From Actinomycetes bacterium (GTDB taxonomy: Bacteria; Actinomycetota; Acidimicrobiia; Acidimicrobiales; Acidimicrobiaceae): a stretch of DNA of 49,403 nt. The position numbers and the translations under genes were made by a program. Location of the stretch: contig JAKCBW010000005.1 in assembly GCA_021842145.1 (NCBI GenBank), forward strand, positions 1 through 49,403. Direction: 5' to 3'. The notes beneath the pieces are model-generated. The model was not told the origin of the DNA. It searched no databases and saw nothing but the letters and a program-made list of their open reading frames with translations. Shown here piece after piece: positions 26,661 to 37,906 of the stretch. Every line of letters starts with the position of its first letter. Position 1 is the first letter of the stretch.

Positions 26661-27449
26661 ATGAAGACCTACCTGGACAAAATTATGCTTTGGCATCGCA
26701 TGAGAGCGAAGGACGACCACCGCGACGTAAAAGAACTGATCCGGATGACTCATGATTTGCCTCCTACGAGATCGTTATCAGGGTCACTGACCGAACAGAG
26801 CGGCGTGTCCATCATCGCCGAGGTGAAGCGGAGATCTCCTTCAAAAGGCGAATTAGCTCCCGATATATCGGTATCCGATCAAGTGGCAAGCTACGTCCAA
26901 GGTGGTGCGAAAGGGATATCCATCCTCACCGATCGGGAGTTCTTCTCTGGCTCGATGGATGACATAAAATTGGCACGAACGCTTACCGACCTTCCAATTC
27001 TCCGAAAAGACTTTACAGTTTCAGAGCTGGACGTACTCGATGCAAGGCTTATCGGTGCTGATGCAGTCCTGCTTATCGCTGCTGCTCTTTCCGTAGAAGA
27101 GGTAGTACGCTTTTCTGACCTCGCCCACAGGGTCGGACTCGAAGTTTTACTTGAGGTACACAACGAGGAGGAATTAGCCCAACTAGATGATTCGGTAGCG
27201 GATATCTTAGGAATAAACCAACGTGATCTGACAACCTTCAGTGTCGATACAACAAGGGCGCTTAAGCTATCCAAACTGGTTCCGGCAGGACTGGTTAAGA
27301 TTGCAGAGTCCGGCGTAAGCGATCCCGAGCAGTTGACCACCTTGTCGAAGGCTGGCTTCGATGGTGCCCTGATTGGCGAGGCCCTCATACGTGCAAAATC
27401 CCCCGAGGAACTGTTGCGAGCATTTGTGACCGCCGGCAGGGGTTTGTAA
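26661..27449 (+). CDS. trpC: Indole-3-glycerol phosphate synthase
   Basis: TrpC closes the indole ring from the anthranilate-derived CdRP. The 262-residue TIM barrel has the catalytic block SIIAEVKRRSPSKG (residues 50-63, with E54 and K56), LRKDFTVSE, the GINQRDLTTF turn and the phosphate site KIAESGVSDP. The ATG has GAGG a few nt upstream. Its N-terminal helix MKTYLDKIM matches the family start. trpF follows with a TAATG overlap. Confidence 0.96.
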   Translation: MKTYLDKIMLWHRMRAKDDHRDVKELIRMTHDLPPTRSLSGSLTEQSGVSIIAEVKRRSPSKGELAPDISVSDQVASYVQGGAKGISILTDREFFSGSMDDIKLARTLTDLPILRKDFTVSELDVLDARLIGADAVLLIAAALSVEEVVRFSDLAHRVGLEVLLEVHNEEELAQLDDSVADILGINQRDLTTFSVDTTRALKLSKLVPAGLVKIAESGVSDPEQLTTLSKAGFDGALIGEALIRAKSPEELLRAFVTAGRGL

Positions 27450-28132
27450 TGTCAGTTTTTGTGAAGATATGCGGAATTACCAACGAATCAGATGCACTTT
27501 TGTCGGTCGCGCTTGGAGCCGATGCCCTTGGCTTCATTTTTGCTCCATCGAAACGGCAGGTCAATGAGCGAACTGTATCCGAGATAATCCACCAACTTCC
27601 CGGATCAGTTTTGACATTTGGAGTTTTTGTCAATGAAAGACCAGAAGAGGTGGCAAAGCTGGTGAATAAGATCGGGCTAAGTGGAGCTCAGCTGCATGGA
27701 AATGAGGGACCGACGGCAACTAACTTCGTCTCTGATCGAGTTCGATACGTAATAAAAAGTTTTCCGGCCGGCCACTCACAGCTCAGAAACCTCGATGCTT
27801 ATCGAATCTGGGCCACGTTGGTCGACAGCTCTAACCCGGGATCTGGCTCGGTCTTTGACTGGTCATTGGTCGAGGGGATGTCCCCAGAACGACGCATGTT
27901 GCTAGCTGGTGGACTGAATGCCGAAAATGTGGCTGTTGGAATCGAAAGGGTTCGACCTTATGGTGTGGACGTCGCTTCGGGCGTGGAGGCCAGCCCGGGC
28001 AAAAAGGATCCCGCCAAATTAAGGGCGTTTATCAGAAACGCTAAAGCCGTAGAGATTGAGGAAGCTGATTACTGGCACCAAGACGGCGCTTTTACTGAAG
28101 ATATGCCCTACAACTGGGAGGAGTCGGATTGA
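27449..28132 (+). CDS. trpF: Phosphoribosylanthranilate isomerase
   Basis: TrpF isomerises N-phosphoribosyl-anthranilate to CdRP. The 227-residue protein has the catalytic cysteine in VKICGIT near the N-terminus, the [16 protein letters not shown] block, [14 protein letters not shown] with the conserved aspartate, and the phosphate loop [13 protein letters not shown]-terminal tail of about 20 residues, rich in acidic and aromatic residues, extends past the barrel. It overlaps trpC by 1 nt and trpB by 4 nt. A dedicated trpF is notable because many actinobacteria use PriA instead. Confidence 0.95.
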
Positions 28133-29307
28133 ACGTAATGGGTAGGCCAGAAAAAAGGGGCCGCTTCGGAGAGTTCGGTGGCGTCTACGTTCCTGAATCG
28201 CTGATCGCGGCCTGTTCTGAGCTGGAGGAGGCCTTCGAATCGTCCTGGGTAGATCCCGAGTTTCGATCAGAGTATTATCGGATTCTTTCAAACTATGCCG
28301 GAAGACCCACTCCTCTAACCTTCGTCAAAAGGCTTTCGGAGAAGCTGGGCGTAGATGTATTTTTCAAAAGAGAAGATCTAAATCACACAGGTTCACACAA
28401 GATCAATAATGTCATCGGCCAAGCGCTTTTGACCAAGAGGATGGGCAAAAAACGGATAATTGCCGAGACTGGCGCAGGGCAGCACGGTGTCGCAACGGCT
28501 ACCGCCGCAGCACTCTTCGGACTCGACGCAACAGTCTTTATGGGCGAGGTTGACGTAAAGCGACAGGAACTCAACGTTTTCCGGATGAAACTTCTTGGCA
28601 CCGAGGTGGTTTCGGTATCTTCGGGCTCAAAAACCCTAAAGGACGCGATAAACGAAGCTATGAGGGACTGGGTCGCAAATGTCGAGAGTACTCACTACTG
28701 CATAGGTTCGGTTATGGGTCCGCATCCCTACCCATATATGGTTAGGGAGTTCCAGCGAATAATAGGGGATGAGGCGCAGGCGCAGTTTGAACAAGAGATC
28801 GGTGGAGACCCGGATTTTGTCGTAGCTTGTGTCGGAGGGGGTTCGAACGCCGCTGGAACCTTCGCCGGCTTCGCATCCAAGGAGAATACCAGGTTGGTTG
28901 GAGTCGAGCCTTTGGGCGGAGCCGCTATTGGCCGAGGCTCACCCGGTATCGTTCATGGCATGCGGACCATGCTTTTACAGGACGAATTTGGGCAGGTCAG
29001 TGAGGCGCAATCGGTGTCTGCGGGTCTCGATTACCCTGGGGTAGGACCAGAGCATTCGTTCTTGCATTCCATCGGTCGGGCTGAGTACTACCAAGTCAAC
29101 GATGACGAAGTCCTCGAGGCGACGATGGTCCTATCGCAGTCTGAGGGTATAATTCCGGCACTCGAGCCGGCACACGCCGTGGCTTGGGTCCTCCGAGAGG
29201 CCGGCAAGATTATCCCTAATGGGTCGAAGGTCGTAATCACCATGTCCGGCAGGGGCGACAAAGACGCAAGTGTGGTTGCAGAATTACTGAAGGACAGGTT
29301 GGCATGA
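28129..29307 (+). CDS. trpB: Tryptophan synthase beta subunit
   Basis: TrpB condenses indole with serine. The 392-residue protein has the PLP lysine K91 in HTGSHKINN, the catalytic glutamate region ETGAGQHG, and the phosphate-binding CVGGGSNA loop. It begins with TTG at 28129, 5 nt after GGAGGAG (28117-28123); an ATG at 28138 in frame is too far from that site. The start overlaps the trpF stop. Length is normal, and this is the type 1 enzyme, which pairs with TrpA. Confidence 0.97.
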
Positions 29308-30086
29308 CCCTTTCTCTATCCTCTCGATTGGATCTAGCGAAATCCTCGTCGAAAAAGATACTCGTACCTTACATTACGGGTGGGCTCGGTGGTGACTGGC
29401 TGGAAGTCCTGGATGCGGTAGTAGCAGCCGGTGCCGACGCCGTTGAGATCGGAATACCGTTTTCCGATCCAATCATGGATGGTCCCGTGATCCAGGAGGC
29501 ATCTCAAAGGGCGATAGAGTCAGGAGCTACCCCTTCGAGTATCCTCGGGGCCCTGGCCAAGCAGAGCTTTGGTGCTCCCCTTGCGATCATGACTTACTTC
29601 AATATTGTCCATCATGCTGGCTTGGAGCGCTTTGCTGGCTGGTTAGACGAGGCTAGCGTAGGCGGCGTAGTACTACCCGATCTTCCCATAGAAGAGATGG
29701 GGGAGTGGAGGGCGGTGGGTAAAGCACACGGAATAGAGACCGTCCAGTTGGTTGCACCGACTACTCCAGATAGTAGGGCCAAGATGCTTTGTAAAGAGGC
29801 AGAAGGCTTCGTATACGCTGTCGGCACCATGGGTGTTACCGGGGTAAGAAGCACGTTATCGGAGTCAGCGACCTTGATAGGTAGCCGCCTTAGGGGGTTT
29901 TCTGAAAAGCCAGTGCTAATTGGGATCGGAGTTTCAAATCCTCAGCAGGCAAAAGAGGCGGCGAGGTCATCGGACGGAGTGATTGTCGGTTCGGCACTCG
30001 TCGGTCGACTGTTGGCTGGGGAAGGTCCGGATGGAGCTTTCAAGTTTGTAGCAGAACTGCGCAGCGCCCTGGATGAGCTTAGTTAG
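29304..30086 (+). CDS. trpA: Tryptophan synthase alpha subunit
   Basis: TrpA cleaves indole-3-glycerol phosphate to indole, which moves to TrpB. The 260-residue TIM barrel has the catalytic glutamate E48 and aspartate D59 in [23 protein letters not shown] on the partner-facing loop, GTMGVTGVR and the phosphate site [10 protein letters not shown]. The ATG overlaps the trpB stop (ATGA). A small gene starts within its last 14 nt. Confidence 0.97.
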
Positions 30087-30402
30087 TAAAGTGGGGTCGG
30101 CTCTTTGTCAACTTTGCGAAGCAGCAGTGCTAAGCGAACGGTTTTATGAGGATGAGGATTGCTGGATAGCTGAGTGCGAATCTTGCGGAGTGCCAATGGT
30201 GGTCTGGAAGAGGCACGGTAACAGTCCACCAGATAGTTTGATCAACTCTATGGTGGAAAGATTGAAGCTAGTTGGAGATAGTTTTTTTGGTATCGAAGAG
30301 TTTTACATCGACCAAAAGATGAGGCAAATACCCGATCATTATCACGCACACGCTCGGAAGATTCCGTCGTGGGCTTTACAGCAAAGGGGTAGGTCGAGGT
30401 AG
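30073..30402 (+). CDS. Small cysteine- and histidine-rich protein at the end of the trp block
   Basis: The 109-residue protein has a likely zinc site formed by C12, C15, C35 and C38 (CQLC and CESC), with a further C30 between, then an Asp/Glu-rich helix and a histidine-rich end HYHAHAR near residue 90. It starts inside trpA, which suggests translational coupling to the tryptophan operon. I do not recognise a characterised family. A metal-binding or HIT-like accessory protein is possible, but I assign no function. Confidence 0.65.
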   Translation: MSLVSKVGSALCQLCEAAVLSERFYEDEDCWIAECESCGVPMVVWKRHGNSPPDSLINSMVERLKLVGDSFFGIEEFYIDQKMRQIPDHYHAHARKIPSWALQQRGRSR

Positions 30403-30714
30403 CTCACCTTGTATGAAGTTTAAGGTGGAAGTGGCACCGGCGATAACCTTCATTCCGAATAAACCCAGAACTGCATGGTCATCACCTTCTAAAACAACTT
30501 GTTACTAAACCCCAAGGAAATGCTCGGTAGATTTCGGGAGCTCGTCAGCGGGCACTCGATTTTTGAGAAGTGGCACTCACGTTGCCTACATCAAGTCCTC
30601 CGCGTCCGAACTTCGAAAACAACCGCCTTTATTTTGAAGCGTTATACGGCTCGAATTCGAAATGCATATTTTGATTGACGTACCAAAGTGGCAATAGAGG
30701 TGTGAGTTTTCACT
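30403..30714. other. Intergenic region after the trp block, no gene seen
   Basis: This stretch of 312 bp between the last trp-block gene and a small plus-strand ORF shows no convincing coding sequence or terminator. TTGATT (30671-30676) and TTGACG (30675-30680) near its end may belong to a promoter of the following ORF, but no -10 is clear. Confidence 0.35.
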
Positions 30715-30843
30715 ATGGGTTCGCTAAGCCCCGCATTGGCATGCATCCTTGCCGTCTTTTTCCTGGCATACCACCGCCTGTCGCGTAAAGGAGCATTAGA
30801 TGAACCCCTGGCGACCCAGCGGGTGAGGCTCAAAAATGGTTAA
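30715..30843 (+). CDS. Possible 42-residue single-helix membrane protein
   Basis: An ATG-started frame encodes 42 residues: a short Ser/Gly start, one hydrophobic helix (about residues 7-19, rich in Ala, Leu, Ile and Phe), then a basic segment HRLSRK and a charged tail with further Arg and Lys. The positive-inside rule would place the C-terminus in the cytoplasm. AGAGG at 30696-30700 lies 14 nt upstream, longer than ideal. An A/T-rich dyad with T5 follows the stop. It lies tail to tail with the AarF-like gene. It resembles known one-helix small proteins in layout only, and function is unknown. Confidence 0.4.
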   Translation: MGSLSPALACILAVFFLAYHRLSRKGALDEPLATQRVRLKNG

Positions 30844-30851
30844 TCATTTTT
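30832..30851. terminator. A/T-rich dyad with flanking A5 and T5
   Basis: AAAAATG (30832-30838) pairs with CATTTTT (30845-30851) around a 6-nt loop. It lies between the stops of the small plus-strand ORF and the minus-strand AarF-like gene and could end both transcripts. The stem is weak in GC. Confidence 0.3.
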
Positions 30852-30857
30852 CGACCG

Positions 30858-32549
30858 TTAGCCCTTTTTACCCGCAATGGTCCTGGCGAATTTCCATGTG
30901 GAGGCGAGTTTTTTCTTGGTTGGACGATTTCGTCCCCCAACCTCCATTCGCTTTCTAATAAGCTCTCGTCGTTCTACTAACTCCTTGTATGTCAGGGTAT
31001 CGATCGACGGATCTAGTCCCAAGGACTCCTTGACTCCTAGCAGGTCAACTGGTGTTTGTCGTAGGTCGACGCCAATTTCCTGAGCGAACTTCTCACCGTA
31101 CTTGGATGTAAAGTAGGTAGCCAGCTGGGTTATCTCGGCAAATAGATCTAAATTGGGAGCAAGAGAGACCATTGCGGAGTCTAAGAAGATCATGTTCTTT
31201 ACGAACAGCATGAGTTCTTTGGGCATTTTGGCGCCAAATCCTAAAAGGGCCTTTGTCAAGTTTCTTATTTCTGCCACGAGTTCATCAGGGGTCATCGCCG
31301 TCGGGTCCATCGCGGGCCCATCTAGTCCCAACTCCTTGATGACCGACTCTAGATCGGTATCCTGTGGTAATGCTCCCATATCTCTTAGCGCACTAACCTG
31401 CATGGTAACGTCATTAATCGTGCCCCCTATCAAAAGCCTTAAAAAGGCGAGTCGTTTTTTTTCTCCCAGTCTTCCCGTGATGCCATAGTCCAGCAGGCCA
31501 ACTTCCCCGCTATTCAGCACAAGGAGGTTACCTCCGTGCAGGTCGCCATGAAATACCCCGTATATCATGGCGCCCTCCATAAATGCGATCATGCCTGCAC
31601 TGACTACTTGTGCGGTATCGATTCCCGCATCTAGCATGCCCGAGACGTCGTCCCAGCTAAAGCCCTTGAGTCTCTCCATCACCAAGACTTTTCGAGTGAC
31701 GTAGCGGTGGTGAGGTCTCGGCACAATCAAGGCTCGTTGATTGGTCTTAGCGAGTATTTCGGCAATATCCAACATGTTGGCTGCTTCAAGGCGAAAGTCG
31801 AGTTCCTCGATAATTGTCTCGGCAAAAAGCTCGACGAGCGCAGGGGGGTTAGCAAGGGCAGAAATCGGTATTCGGCCTACCAGCGCAGGGGCAATCCAGC
31901 TCATTGCTGCTAGATCACTTCGCACTAGCTCTGCGACATTTGGTCGTTGCACCTTCACAACAACCTCTTCTCCGGTCCTCAGCTTCGCGACATGAACCTG
32001 CGCTATCGAGGCGGCTGCGAGTGGCCTGATGTCAAATTCAGAAAAAATATCTTCAAGTGGCCTTTTCAGTTCTTTCTCAATCGTCTGGCGGACGACTGAG
32101 AAAGGTTCGGGCTTGACCTGGTCTAGCAGGGACTTAAACTCACTAACGAGTTCTTCTGGGAAAATTCCATTTCCTGCTGAGAGTATCTGCCCTAATTTGA
32201 TATAAGTCGGCCCAAGCTCCTCAAATGCGTCTCGAAGACGGTGAGAAATACCGCGCTTTGAAACTGATCCTCCCGATCGTCGCTCTAGTAATCGCCATAG
32301 TAAGAGTGCCTTTCCGAGCTGAAAGCCCGTTCCGATAACTCTATTTGCCGGAGGCAACCTCCGCTTCTTGATTAAAGAAGGTAGTTCGGCGTGGGTCCGC
32401 TTTCTTAATGAGTCAATTTCACCCAGCCACTCGAGCTTTGATACGTCAACTAGCCAAGGTGGTGTGAGACTGAAGGATCCGATTTCGGCATCTTTTGGAA
32501 GGGGTGCGCCGCTGGGCATGTCGCTTTTTTTTGATTCCACAGAATCCAA
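30858..32549 (-). CDS. AarF/UbiB (ABC1) family atypical kinase
   Basis: The 563-residue protein has the KxGQ helix segment GPTYIKLGQILSA, the modified nucleotide loop AAASIAQVH, the lysine in VVVKVQRP, the catalytic loop GVFHGDLHGGNLLV and the metal site LLDYGITGRL. UbiB-like proteins are needed for isoprenoid quinone synthesis or handling, and some act as ATPases. Here the quinone would be menaquinone, whose genes menG and menF lie in the same window. The gene follows fabF by 115 nt in the same direction, so it may be the last gene of the fab cluster. No clear C-terminal membrane helix pair is seen. Confidence 0.9.
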   Translation of the reverse strand: MDSVESKKSDMPSGAPLPKDAEIGSFSLTPPWLVDVSKLEWLGEIDSLRKRTHAELPSLIKKRRLPPANRVIGTGFQLGKALLLWRLLERRSGGSVSKRGISHRLRDAFEELGPTYIKLGQILSAGNGIFPEELVSEFKSLLDQVKPEPFSVVRQTIEKELKRPLEDIFSEFDIRPLAAASIAQVHVAKLRTGEEVVVKVQRPNVAELVRSDLAAMSWIAPALVGRIPISALANPPALVELFAETIIEELDFRLEAANMLDIAEILAKTNQRALIVPRPHHRYVTRKVLVMERLKGFSWDDVSGMLDAGIDTAQVVSAGMIAFMEGAMIYGVFHGDLHGGNLLVLNSGEVGLLDYGITGRLGEKKRLAFLRLLIGGTINDVTMQVSALRDMGALPQDTDLESVIKELGLDGPAMDPTAMTPDELVAEIRNLTKALLGFGAKMPKELMLFVKNMIFLDSAMVSLAPNLDLFAEITQLATYFTSKYGEKFAQEIGVDLRQTPVDLLGVKESLGLDPSIDTLTYKELVERRELIRKRMEVGGRNRPTKKKLASTWKFARTIAGKKG

Positions 32550-32664: not shown

Positions 32665-33882
32665 TCAGCCTTGGTAGGGGCTTATGATTATCGATCCGTT
32701 GTGTCCACCAAATCCGAAGGAGTTTGAAATGATCGGTCCAGGAGTAAATGGTCGACCTTCGTGCATCACCACATCGACATGAATGTCCGGATCAATATCT
32801 TTTGTGCCAACCGTGGGCGGGATGATCCGATGTTCGATGGTTAGGCACGCAGCTACTGCTTCCAAAGCTCCCGCAGATCCAAACGAGTGACCGAGTGCCC
32901 CCTTTACCGAAGTAACGGGTGGAGTATTGGGTCCGAAAACCAGATTCATTGCTTCACCTTCGGCCAGATCATTCATTGGAGTCGAAGTTCCGTGGGCGTT
33001 GATATGGGCTATGTCGGAGGGAAGGAGTCCCGCGTCATCAATTGCTAGTTGCATGCACGACGCTGCACCGATGCCATGTGGGCGCGGTGCGGTTATGTGG
33101 TAGGCATCGGCGTTGGAAGCGGCTCCATCGATAGTGCCATAGATATGGGCTCCTCTTGCCTTCGCCCTTTCGAGCTCTTCAAGTATGAGGATCGCCGCGC
33201 CTTCGCCCATCATAAAGCCGTCCCTGTCCTTGTCGAATGGACGAGATATCCCGGCGTTGGACATAGCGGTCATGTTGCGAAAGCCGGCTTTAGCCGTTTC
33301 AGTCATTGCGCACTCAGAACCACCGGTAAACATGACGTCGCATCGACCGCTGGCGATCAACCTTGCTGCATTGCCGATAGCTTGAGTACCGGCGGCACAG
33401 GCCGTCACCGTCGTCTCGCATGGTCCTTCTAGACCGAAGCGCATCGAAATCGAGGCGGCACCAGCATTGGCCATCATCAAGGGAACCAAAAAGGGAGTCA
33501 CCCTATCGAAGCCCCGAGTATTCCCCACCATAACCTGGGTCTCTAGGCTTTCGAGCCCACCAACCCCGGTTCCCACTAGTACTCCCGCTCTTGCGGGATC
33601 GGTGATCTGCAGATCTCCGGCATCCTCCAATGCGAGTGAAGCGGCTGCGATCCCAAATTGGTTGAAGCGGTCATGGCGGCGGATCTCTTTCGGTCCGAGC
33701 CACAACGAGGGGTCAAAATCGTCGACCGTTCTCATACCAACCGGCGCTGGTCCGAAAAGACCCTTCCAGAACTTCTCCTTGGAATTTCCGATGCCGCTTA
33801 TTACCCCAACGCCGACTATAGCTACCTTATAAGGAGCATCAATTCCGTCGCTCGGCCCATTTGGCCCCCAAGTTATTTTCAT
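32665..33882 (-). CDS. fabF: Beta-ketoacyl-ACP synthase II (FabF)
   Basis: FabF elongates acyl-ACP with malonyl-ACP. The 405-residue protein has the nucleophile C162 in TACAAGTQAIG, the first catalytic histidine in NAHGTSTPMND and the second in GHSFGSAGALE, plus a C-terminal SNSFGFGGHNGSII. Its ATG overlaps the acpP stop (ATGA). Residues and length are normal for an elongating Cys-His-His enzyme. Confidence 0.96.
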   Translation of the reverse strand: MKITWGPNGPSDGIDAPYKVAIVGVGVISGIGNSKEKFWKGLFGPAPVGMRTVDDFDPSLWLGPKEIRRHDRFNQFGIAAASLALEDAGDLQITDPARAGVLVGTGVGGLESLETQVMVGNTRGFDRVTPFLVPLMMANAGAASISMRFGLEGPCETTVTACAAGTQAIGNAARLIASGRCDVMFTGGSECAMTETAKAGFRNMTAMSNAGISRPFDKDRDGFMMGEGAAILILEELERAKARGAHIYGTIDGAASNADAYHITAPRPHGIGAASCMQLAIDDAGLLPSDIAHINAHGTSTPMNDLAEGEAMNLVFGPNTPPVTSVKGALGHSFGSAGALEAVAACLTIEHRIIPPTVGTKDIDPDIHVDVVMHEGRPFTPGPIISNSFGFGGHNGSIIISPYQG

Positions 33883-34121
33883 CCCATCTTCCCGGTAACT
33901 AACTCATAGGCCTGCTGTACGGTTTGGACGCCTTCGAGTTCTGACTCCTCGACGTTGACACCGAACTCGTCTTCAAGGGCCATGACCAGTTCAACTAGGT
34001 CAAGGCTGTCCGCGTCGAGGTCTTCGGCGAAACGCGCGTCAAGAGTGACCTGATCAGGCGTTACTCCTAACACCTTGACGGCACAACCCTTAAACTTTTC
34101 AAACGACTCCTGCTGGTCCAT
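33879..34121 (-). CDS. acpP: Acyl carrier protein
   Basis: The 80-residue protein has the phosphopantetheine serine S39 in DLDADSLDLVEL, acidic helices around it and a typical four-helix length. I use the ATG at 34121, 7 nt after AGGA on the minus strand. A frame extending to 34202 adds 27 residues without family support. It sits between fabG and fabF as in many bacteria. Confidence 0.95.
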   Translation of the reverse strand: MDQQESFEKFKGCAVKVLGVTPDQVTLDARFAEDLDADSLDLVELVMALEDEFGVNVEESELEGVQTVQQAYELVTGKMG

Positions 34122-34208
34122 TTCGAGTCCTTTCACTGACACATCTACTGCCAACCGACCTTCGGTAGACAGCTCTAAAGCTGCGTAAAAACTGGCATTC
34201 AAAGGGAT

Positions 34209-34958
34209 TTAAATTCCCATTGAAAGACCACCGTCCACAGCCAAGACGGCACCTGTAATAAACGAAGCTTGGTCTGAAGCTAGGTAACAAATAGCGCTAG
34301 CGATCTCTTCAGGCTGCGCTATTCTCCCTACCGGAGTCTCTTTAGCTAACGCGTCGAGTCGCGCCTGGGGGAGACTCAAGACCATCTCGGTCGCCACCGC
34401 TCCGGGGGCGACAATATTTACGGTTATGTTACGGGAGGCCACCTCCCTCGCCAGGGACCTACCTAGGCCAATCATGCCCGCTTTCGACGCAGCGTAATTT
34501 GCCTGACCCGCCGAACCCATAACGGCTACCACGGATGAAATGAGCACTATCCTTCCATATCGGTTCTTTACCATTGAGGCAAGTGCCCGTTTTGTAAGTC
34601 GATAGCTCGCGGTGAGGTTTGTCTCGATAGTCTTATTCCAGGCGTCTTCCGACATTCTTAGCATCAAAGTATCGACGGTGGCACCCGCATTGACGACGAG
34701 GACTCCTACCGGACCAAATCGATCCTCACCATCCTTAAACGCCCGTTCGATATCTTGCTGCGAAGTGACATCTACCTTGGCCTCAAAAAGATTGTCCTTC
34801 GGCAACAGATCTACAGGGGGTTCGTGTGTCCTATAGCAGAGCGTGACTCTATCACCAGAATCGAGAAACTGCCTAACGGTAGCGAGGCCTATCCCGGTGG
34901 CACCTCCGGTAATAAAGACGTGTCTTGCTGTGGCCTGGTTCACTAGTTCCCACTCCAA
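34209..34958 (-). CDS. fabG: 3-oxoacyl-ACP reductase (FabG)
   Basis: FabG reduces 3-oxoacyl-ACP with NADPH. The 249-residue SDR protein has the cofactor loop TGGATGIG at 17-24, NAG at 90-92, and the catalytic S142, Y155 and K159 (in YAASK). The first dozen residues overlap the fabH end by 16 nt, and translational coupling is likely. The C-terminal GGLSMGI fits the family. Confidence 0.94.
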   Translation of the reverse strand: MEWELVNQATARHVFITGGATGIGLATVRQFLDSGDRVTLCYRTHEPPVDLLPKDNLFEAKVDVTSQQDIERAFKDGEDRFGPVGVLVVNAGATVDTLMLRMSEDAWNKTIETNLTASYRLTKRALASMVKNRYGRIVLISSVVAVMGSAGQANYAASKAGMIGLGRSLAREVASRNITVNIVAPGAVATEMVLSLPQARLDALAKETPVGRIAQPEEIASAICYLASDQASFITGAVLAVDGGLSMGI

Positions 34959-35908
34959 CGGACAACGGCGCTTGCCCAGGTCATTCCGGCTCCGAATCCG
35001 GAAAACAACACAAGGTCGCCGGGCTTTAAACGATTTTTTTCCTCAGCATCGACCAGTGCCAAAGGAATAGATCCCGAGGAGGTGTTCCCGAAGCGATCTA
35101 GGACAACCGATGCACGCTCCATCGGTATTGACAGCCTGTTACAAGCGGCCTCGATGATTCTGATATTCGCTTGGTGTGGAACGCATAGTGCTATATCGTC
35201 AGAAGTAACCCCCGCACGACGCATGGCTACTTCTGCGGATTCGACCATGACCCTAACTGCCTTCTTGTAGACCTCGCGACCTTCCATCCTGAGGTAGCTA
35301 CCATGATCGGCATAGAGGATCGGTTGCGCAGAGCCATCGACTCCTAGGTCCCACCCTAAAAAATCGTCCTGTCCCTCGGTGGCTTCGAGGACGACACCGC
35401 CGGCTCCATCTGCAAAAAGAATTGCGGTACCCCTATCATCCATATCGGTAATTCGGGAAAGGGTGTCCGCTCCTAAAACGAGCACCTTCTTATTTATCCC
35501 AGCGCCGATCATGGCTCTTCCGGTGACCATCGCATACACATAGCCGGCGCACGCTGCATTCAGGTCGAATGCCCCTCCGGAGGTCCCGATCTTGTGAGAG
35601 ACAACCGCAGAGGTGGCGGGGACCGCTTGATCAGGCGTTGTGGTCGACAAGATAAGGAGGTCGATGTCGGCAGGGCTTATACCAGCACGCTTAATCGCAG
35701 CAGTTCCCGCCTCTATGGATAGCGAGGATGTAGTTCCTCCCCACCGCCTCTCCTTGATACCGGTTCGCTCGGTTATCCATTCGTCAGAAGTCTCCATGCG
35801 ACTTTCAAATTCGGCATTTGTGACCACCTTGTCCGGTACGGCGGACCCCCAACCGGTAATTCTTGCTCCGAATCCCACTATCTCGATGCTCCTTCTGTTT
35901 TTAGCCAA
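34943..35908 (-). CDS. fabH: Beta-ketoacyl-ACP synthase III (FabH)
   Basis: FabH starts fatty-acid synthesis by condensing acyl-CoA with malonyl-ACP. The 321-residue protein has the nucleophile C120 in LNAACAGYVYA, the histidine in PHQANIRI and the asparagine in GNTSSGSIPLA, completing the Cys-His-Asn triad. It overlaps fabD by 31 nt and fabG by 16 nt. Whether it prefers acetyl-CoA or branched primers is not clear from the sequence. Confidence 0.96.
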   Translation of the reverse strand: MAKNRRSIEIVGFGARITGWGSAVPDKVVTNAEFESRMETSDEWITERTGIKERRWGGTTSSLSIEAGTAAIKRAGISPADIDLLILSTTTPDQAVPATSAVVSHKIGTSGGAFDLNAACAGYVYAMVTGRAMIGAGINKKVLVLGADTLSRITDMDDRGTAILFADGAGGVVLEATEGQDDFLGWDLGVDGSAQPILYADHGSYLRMEGREVYKKAVRVMVESAEVAMRRAGVTSDDIALCVPHQANIRIIEAACNRLSIPMERASVVLDRFGNTSSGSIPLALVDAEEKNRLKPGDLVLFSGFGAGMTWASAVVRWSGN

Positions 35909-37086
35909 GCAAGTGGCTGACTCGGTGTTACTCTCTCGCCGTCTAGGGCTATTATTCCCATAAGCGTGCCTTCGAAAGGTGAGCGAATTTCGGTGTCGTT
36001 AACCCTTCCAAGGACCTCACCAACGGTGATGGAAGCTCCCTCTTTGAGGGGCTCACTTGATACCGTCTCTAGGGCGGGAACGAATATTCCGGCAATAGGA
36101 CTCACCACTATTCTTTCCTGCATAAAAAGGTGCTCTCCGTGATGAGCCTTTGCAAATTCATGCAAGGGTCCAGCTTCTGAGATTGCCTCAACGAGGTCAT
36201 CTAGGTTGTCTGGGCTCGATACGCTTAGTACTCTTGCTTCGGGCATTGCACGTCTTACCAGTCCCGCTAGTACCGCTCCCGGTCCCATTTCGACTAGCAG
36301 GTGCGGATGAAATCCGTGTATCAACTTCAGGGTTTGTGACCATTTAACTGGTGATGTCAGTTGTTCCAGAAGTAGGCGAGGCCAGTCCGACGCCAAAAAG
36401 TGCTCGGTTGCGTCGACGTTAGCGACAACTGGGACTTCAGCATCATAGAAGCGGGTAGATATAAGGGCCTTCTTCAGCCTTGATTTTGCCGAATCCATCA
36501 GAGGCGTGTGAAATCCACCGCCAACCGGTATGACCATGGCACGCTTTGCGCCCATCTCCTTGGCGACTTCACACGCCCGGGCTACCCCATCTTTAGTGCC
36601 GGCTATTACGATCTGCCCACCGGAGTTATAGTTCGCTACCCAGACACCTTCAACCATGTCGCATGCCCTCTCGGCGACCTCGTCCTCAATGCCCAGTAAG
36701 GCGGCCATTGCGCCAGGGGACTCTTCGGCGGCGATGGCCATCGCTTCCGATCTCTCGGCGACTAATTTTGCACCTGAGTCGAACGCCAGGGCACCGGCAG
36801 CCACAAGGGCCGAGTATTCCCCTAATGAATGTCCAGCAACAAGCTGCGGAACAATTCCTAACCTTTCGACGGCGTCTAAGGCGATCATTGACATCACGTA
36901 GGTAGCAAGCTGCGTATTACGCGTCACCGACAGGTCTTCGGCGCTCGCGTTCAGCAGCAGGTGCTCGATATCGCGCCCACTCGCATTTGATGCCTCCGCT
37001 ACTAGCTCCCACGAAGGATGTTCGGTCCACGGCTGTCCCATCTGTGGCTTCTGCGAGCCTTGCCCAGGGAACAAAAAACAGATCAT
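35878..37086 (-). CDS. fabD: Malonyl-CoA:ACP transacylase (FabD) with C-terminal lipoyl/biotinyl-like domain
   Basis: Residues 1-310 are a full FabD: GQGSQ at 8-12, nucleophile S87 in GHSLGEYSA and H193 in GFHTPLM, ending as usual near residue 310. About 70 further residues (325-396) form a biotinyl/lipoyl-like barrel: VVSPIAGIFVP, LKEGASITVGEVLG, then EIRSPFEGTLMGII, DGERV and PLAWL. The beta-turn that would hold the AMKM or DKA lysine is shortened to VNDTE, so it is unlikely to be biotinylated or lipoylated. Its start has GGAGG 6 nt upstream. FabD is usually about 310 residues, so this is a real fusion rather than a frame error, since the frame runs through. Confidence 0.88.
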   Translation of the reverse strand: MICFLFPGQGSQKPQMGQPWTEHPSWELVAEASNASGRDIEHLLLNASAEDLSVTRNTQLATYVMSMIALDAVERLGIVPQLVAGHSLGEYSALVAAGALAFDSGAKLVAERSEAMAIAAEESPGAMAALLGIEDEVAERACDMVEGVWVANYNSGGQIVIAGTKDGVARACEVAKEMGAKRAMVIPVGGGFHTPLMDSAKSRLKKALISTRFYDAEVPVVANVDATEHFLASDWPRLLLEQLTSPVKWSQTLKLIHGFHPHLLVEMGPGAVLAGLVRRAMPEARVLSVSSPDNLDDLVEAISEAGPLHEFAKAHHGEHLFMQERIVVSPIAGIFVPALETVSSEPLKEGASITVGEVLGRVNDTEIRSPFEGTLMGIIALDGERVTPSQPLAWLKTEGASR

Positions 37087-37407: not shown

Positions 37408-37490
37408 GCCCGGGTGGTGGAATGGTAGACACGGAGGCCTCAAAAGCCTCTGCTCGTAAGGGCATGCGGGTTCGAGTCCCGCCCCGGGTA
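37408..37490 (+). tRNA. tRNA-Leu (anticodon CAA)
   Basis: The acceptor stem pairs GCCCGGG (37408-37414) with CCCGGGT (37483-37489), with one G-T pair, and A37490 as discriminator. The anticodon stem GAGGC/GCCTC holds the loop CTCAAAA, giving anticodon CAA for UUG codons. A long variable arm marks a class II tRNA, and the T arm is GCGGG-TTCGAGT-CCCGC. The CCA end is not encoded. Confidence 0.95.
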
Positions 37491-37906
37491 CTCAAGGCCC
37501 TGCAATCAAAGCTACTTGGGCCCGAAGTTTCATCTCCACAAAAACGCAAGAGTATCCCGTCAAAGACGGTGGTCATTATATAAAAGCTATCGCTCTAGAT
37601 TTGTCATTAGATAGCCCTAGGCCAATGATCGGAAGTTTCAGGAAGATCAATTCCCAAGCCCCTTTAGCGCCCTTTTAACTCATCCAGTGAGGTGAGTTTG
37701 CCTTGAGGATCTTGACGCCAAAGATTTCGTACCAACCACTCCAATCGCTGGTTATTTGCTGAAAGGGTTCCAAGATGCCTTCCCCTCGTCGATGCGTAGT
37801 GTGGCAAGCGCGAAAGATGGTAATGAGCCGCATGCGAATGCGGGATAGGATGCCGAAGGGATCACTCTATTTAGATTGAGTTACCGACACGGGAGGATAC
37901 ATTTCG
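37491..37906. other. Intergenic region after tRNA-Leu, no gene seen
   Basis: This stretch of 416 bp shows no convincing gene. It holds AACTCA (about 37677-37682) and TGAGTT (about 37693-37698) as a 6-bp inverted repeat and, at its end, GGAGG (37892-37896) before the next start. No terminator for the tRNA is obvious. Confidence 0.35.

Follow-up and report, generated by a model that had tools for sequence, protein, structure and literature searches.

A lysine-less biotinyl-type barrel on or beside FabD in Actinomycetota, a possible docking module for acyl-CoA carboxylase

The FabD protein encoded on a 49,403-nucleotide contig of an Acidimicrobiales bacterium (JAKCBW010000005.1, C145 in our numbering; this whole stretch is referred to below as the window) carries a C-terminal domain of about 75 residues that is predicted, with high confidence, to be a biotinyl-type hammerhead barrel, nearest in fold to BCCPs and devoid of the lysine that receives biotin. 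The same barrel is conserved over much of the phylum, either fused to FabD or encoded by a small gene beside fabD. We propose, at a probability of about 45%, that it is a retired, non-biotinylated BCCP domain that would act as a docking module between a FAS-dedicated carboxylase and FabD/FabH.

Results

The domain-bearing open reading frame (35878-37086, minus strand, 402 aa) is the first gene of an operon with the order fabD-fabH-fabG-acpP-fabF (Table 1), and this form of FabD is present in a single copy in the assembly, which measures 2.0 Mb and is 76% complete. An earlier note on this DNA had described the first part of the protein as a normal FabD, and we find the same: residues 1-282 score 262.7 bits in a profile search with the FabD model TIGR00128, above its curated cut-off of 260.9, and S87, H193, R112 and Q9, including the active-site Ser-His pair (S87 and H193), fall in invariant columns of an alignment of 78 FabDs. 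By this alignment the catalytic residues are intact, and malonyl-CoA:ACP transfer activity is predicted. Upstream of fabD, and divergent from it, lies a tRNA-Leu (CAA) gene on the plus strand (37408-37491), and the region downstream of the operon (26661-32549) holds trpC-, trpF-, trpB- and trpA-like genes on the plus strand together with an ABC1/UbiB-like kinase gene on the minus strand.

Table 1. Features of the window's fab operon and of the domain-bearing FabD
Feature	Position	Strand	Basis
FabD catalytic part (malonyl-CoA:ACP transacylase), residues 1-305	36172..37086	-	TIGR00128; invariant columns of 78 FabDs
Linker, residues 306-322	36121..36171	-	pLDDT <50 at 315-321, full-length model
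Predicted lysine-less biotinyl/BCCP-like barrel, residues 323-396	35899..36120	-	AF2; nearest folds BCCPs; profile vs PDB
Hairpin VNDTE, residues 362-366, in place of carrier AMKM	35989..36003	-	alignment
fabH	34943..35908	-	ORF; 31-base overlap with the fabD end
fabG	34209..34958	-	ORF; reference query, matched in syntenic loci
Acyl carrier protein (acpP)	33879..34202	-	ORF, synteny
fabF	32665..33882	-	ORF, synteny

Searched as a single sequence, the tail gives a weak match to Biotin_lipoyl (PF00364; E 0.007) and a marginal one in the PDB (P. horikoshi BCCP, E 0.011), and the window's domain, at 16.2-16.6 bits, stays under the Pfam gathering cut-off of 22.1 for PF00364. Among its homologues, 70 of 81 match Biotin_lipoyl, the best with E 2.6e-8, and a profile built from the 81 retrieves the transcarboxylase 1.3S subunit (2e-12), the P. 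horikoshi BCCP (9e-10) and the E. coli BCCP (5e-9) from the known structures. AlphaFold2 models the isolated domain with a pLDDT of 90.3; Foldseek ranks BCCPs first for this model (E 2e-4), and a VIA-align comparison with E. coli BCCP gives a Z of 11.5 and 1.1 Å across 68 residues. The earlier suggestion of a biotinyl/lipoyl barrel at about residues 325-396, which a structure prediction without a hammerhead barrel would have contradicted, is thus borne out by both the model and the profile, which together also rule out a chance resemblance to biotinyl domains. In a model of the full-length protein the barrel is again well predicted, and residues 315-321 fall below pLDDT 50 as a predicted disordered linker, so that the barrel reads as a flexibly tethered domain on FabD; its placing relative to FabD in that model was left unused because the linker is disordered and no PAE was available.

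At the column of the biotinyl-lysine, all 10 true BCCP domains taken for comparison from Actinomycetota have lysine, as against none of the 129 members of the barrel family, which have glycine (42), arginine (33), a gap (25), serine (11) or other residues. With this lysine missing from all 129, carrier chemistry is excluded, while the fold is kept. The short turn VNDTE, noted earlier as lacking the lysine, is located at residues 362-366. Separate-gene homologues in the window's class have a hairpin of normal biotinyl length in which EAMKM is replaced, often by EGPGS/T, and the hairpin of the Acidimicrobiales fusion, the window's included, is shorter than theirs by four further residues; judged from the alignment, the shortening is an extra change specific to that fusion. 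Another modified residue in the hairpin was considered and rejected, as lysine, cysteine and serine are all unconserved there. The hairpin end is the least conserved section of the family, and conservation is concentrated in the first strand, the last strand and the turns (R325 89%, P330 98%, G333 100%, Q390 84%, P391 84%, W394 60%). The hairpin end is the face that carriers offer to their partner enzymes, so docking by the barrel would need another face than that of a true BCCP, which counts against a docking role. Separately, two genomes (G518, L246:3299-3529; G575, L247:2734-2967) encode AccB-like proteins with EAAKQF or ETAKQF in place of EAMKM, in which the hairpin lysine is retained and the adjacent methionines are lost.

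A homologue search within Actinomycetota, in which most of the genomes compared are MAGs, found the extension in frame in many related Acidimicrobiia, and a frameshift or annotation artefact in the window is rejected on this ground. A scan of the genome collection with a profile of 11 domains gave 19 loci, all from MAGs; of the weak domain-profile matches (E about 1e-7 to 1e-10), those inspected turned out to be genuine BCCP or lipoyl domains, and such matches were excluded. Four families of the window's own order (f1, f2, f3, f6) have the barrel as part of FabD, and f13, also of the window's class, has a divergent version fused to FabD. In twelve further families of this class (f7, f9, f10, f17, f20, f21, f24, f26, f29, f32, f33, f36) it is a separate gene of about 85 aa immediately after fabD. 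Outside the window's class, the order fabD-barrel-fabH recurs in f37, f42, f43, f45, f69, f72, f77, f80 and f85, and f49 has a FabD-barrel fusion. Of the 198 genomes of class Actinomycetes, 90 give domain-profile matches at E <=1e-9, the weaker of which include some true carrier domains, and all 30 loci inspected there, from many families, are FabD fusions. Fusion to FabD is also found in at least two lineages besides the window's order and the Actinomycetes families. The earlier reading did not recognise that, over the phylum as a whole, the barrel is mostly encoded by a gene of its own located between fabD and fabH. In Actinomycetota the separate gene almost always holds this position; genomes that have it typically show a fabD-fabH gap of about 255-400 bases, against mostly 20-50 bases in those that lack it but still have fabD and fabH side by side.

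Mapped on a FabD tree, fusion requires four changes of state, three of them among barrel-bearing rows, so joining or splitting occurred repeatedly; the fused and separate forms thus switch at least three times, and switching of this kind is usually a sign that the products interact. The fusions themselves, found in several lineages, would also fit a barrel that acts on FabD alone, by stabilising it, helping it dimerise or gating its active site, with no other partner. We regard this as unlikely, because in many lineages the barrel is a separate gene, at times far from fabD, and because the linker is disordered in the model. That the closest folds and profiles are those of BCCPs could also make the barrel a functionless remnant of an ancestral accB gene, a reading to which we give very little credence in view of the near-invariant columns, the gene position fixed over phylum-wide divergence and the repeated joining to FabD.

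Several loci depart from the usual arrangement. The three f13 loci (L022, L023, L024) bear the divergent barrel on FabD in genomes that have no AccD2 paralogue (defined below), and G016, a relative of these genomes, has a FabD without a barrel. In two families, f15 and f18, a lysine-less barrel gene stands alone between nusB- and pyrR-like genes (L268:5298-5495 in G006; L269:5091-5309 in G012), on the strand opposite to its neighbours and distant from fabD; in Firmicutes, accB-accC is located in the efp-nusB neighbourhood, and these lone barrels may bear on descent from accB. In G171 (L135:2421-2669) a barrel-family protein is encoded next to genes for a DegT-type aminotransferase and a sulfotransferase-like protein, with neither fab genes nor accD adjoining.

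We found three kinds of genomic association between the barrel and accD, which encodes the carboxyltransferase of acyl-CoA carboxylase. First, accD follows fabF in G079, G110, G009, G393, G315 and G237, and it comes after fabF in 12 of the 13 Actinomycetes fused-FabD loci of sufficient length, the exception being G334. Second, in family f74 fabD has been relocated and the remaining order is barrel-fabH-acpP-fabF-accD, and in three genomes the barrel gene lies immediately upstream of accD without fab genes (G402 and G428 of f74, and G417, an Acidimicrobiia MAG whose pairing is independent of f74), that is, in two lineages; in G402 and G417 fabD is elsewhere in the genome and has no barrel. Third, across 148 genomes of the window's class, the barrel and AccD2, one accD paralogue (query P0002, E <9e-133), occur together in 46, the barrel alone in 4, AccD2 alone in 2, both of them without a detected FabD, and neither in 96 (Fisher p 5e-31, uncorrected for relatedness). 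A barrel with no accD2, which speaks against a link between the two, is seen in G107 and in the f13 genomes. Co-occurrence also holds where accD2 and the fab genes are far apart: in G002, in G014 and in the window's genome, whose accD2 is on another contig (C48). In a phylogeny-corrected test, using a tree built from another carboxyltransferase in 60 genomes, all four supported independent pairs agree in direction, a suggestive result in an under-powered comparison (p 0.125). The co-occurrence could largely come from a fab operon inherited as a unit.

The earlier note had proposed that the domain docks to acetyl-CoA carboxylase or ACP. Its carboxylase half now appears partly supported, as the barrel-accD pairs, the position of accD after fabF and the co-occurrence with AccD2 provide independent genomic evidence. 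The main rival reading is a FAS-II scaffold in which the barrel would bind FabH and/or ACP and gather FabD, ACP and FabH for the first condensation step; its association with accD would then reflect only shared operon history. Such a scaffold would explain why the barrel gene lies nearly always between fabD and fabH, and why f74, with its relocated fabD, keeps the barrel beside fabH-acpP-fabF-accD; the three genomes in which the barrel stays with accD away from fabH, and the fabD-fabH pair of G417, which has no barrel, speak against it, and we consider it a serious but rather unlikely alternative. Less probable again is a regulatory decoy, a BCCP mimic that would compete for the carboxylase active site and lessen carboxylation when FabD is free: the BCCP fold, the lost lysine and the association with accD would all suit a decoy, but a mimic would have to reach into the active site with its hairpin, which here is short and unconserved.

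Discussion

Three features lead us to prefer a docking module: the fold has been preserved although its cofactor site is gone, it has been fused to FabD repeatedly, and it is occasionally paired with accD only. According to this proposal, a BCCP-type domain would have lost its biotinylation lysine and been retained for protein-protein docking; carried by FabD on a flexible tether, as in the window, or produced elsewhere as a small protein of its own from the gene between fabD and fabH, the domain would dock onto the acyl-CoA carboxylase dedicated to FAS, probably through the carboxyltransferase subunit. Malonyl-CoA production would then be held beside FabD, and beside FabH, and local transfer of malonyl groups to ACP would be raised. 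Against this, the barrel and accD2 could be just two parts of one inherited type of FAS operon. The broader proposal, that these retired BCCP domains form across the phylum a dedicated adaptor joining acyl-CoA carboxylase to FabD, and hence a malonyl-CoA metabolon encoded in the fab operon, is more tentative than docking itself.

To our knowledge, the question of whether malonyl-CoA reaches bacterial type II FAS by free diffusion or by channelling is unsettled. The barrel may couple the synthesis of malonyl-CoA to its consumption, and a small adaptor, tethered or stand-alone, with a fixed gene position would offer an easily expressed handle on this question. It is also a carrier domain that has lost its cofactor site and yet has been retained throughout much of a phylum. 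A large number of Actinomycetota FabD proteins gain an extra domain through it; we found no description of the domain or of its fusion to FabD in the literature searched (open-licence PMC papers).

The barrel resembles BCCP domains (AccB/PF00364; E. coli 1bdo/4hr7, P. horikoshi 2evb) in its predicted hammerhead fold and in its conserved glycine and proline turns, and the separate-gene barrels also share the spacing around the hairpin; it differs from them in the missing biotin-site lysine and in its place on or beside FabD, not on biotin carboxylase. Compared with FabD proteins of the TIGR00128 type, the window protein has the complete catalytic part with its Ser-His pair and adds the barrel on a flexible linker. 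Other barrel-sandwich hybrids, such as HlyD/RND adaptors, RnfC_N and NqrA_N, also have the fold without a modified lysine and give weak profile matches, but the window's barrel occurs in a cytosolic FAS context and is nearest to BCCPs in profile and fold. Assignment as an HlyD/RND periplasmic adaptor was rejected, given the fab operon context of nearly all loci and a 402-aa fusion without coiled-coil hairpin or membrane parts.

Two known systems group a carboxylase with fatty acid synthesis. The mycobacterial FAS-II locus, fabD-acpM-kasA-kasB-accD6 (PMC8733736), likewise has a carboxyltransferase gene among its fab genes, but it contains no fabH, and the M. tuberculosis fabD, at 909 bp (PMC8733736), is too short to encode a barrel, which counts against a strict rule that barrel and accD go together. 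The FAS of Chaetomium thermophilum differs in being type I, and a biotinyl-like adaptor does not figure in the portion of the report cited here (PMC5527848); according to that portion, cross-links connect carboxylase subunits with the malonyl/palmitoyl transferase domain and with the ACP domain, which places the carboxylase at the malonyl-transferase domain of FAS and offers a precedent from another system for the proposed docking.
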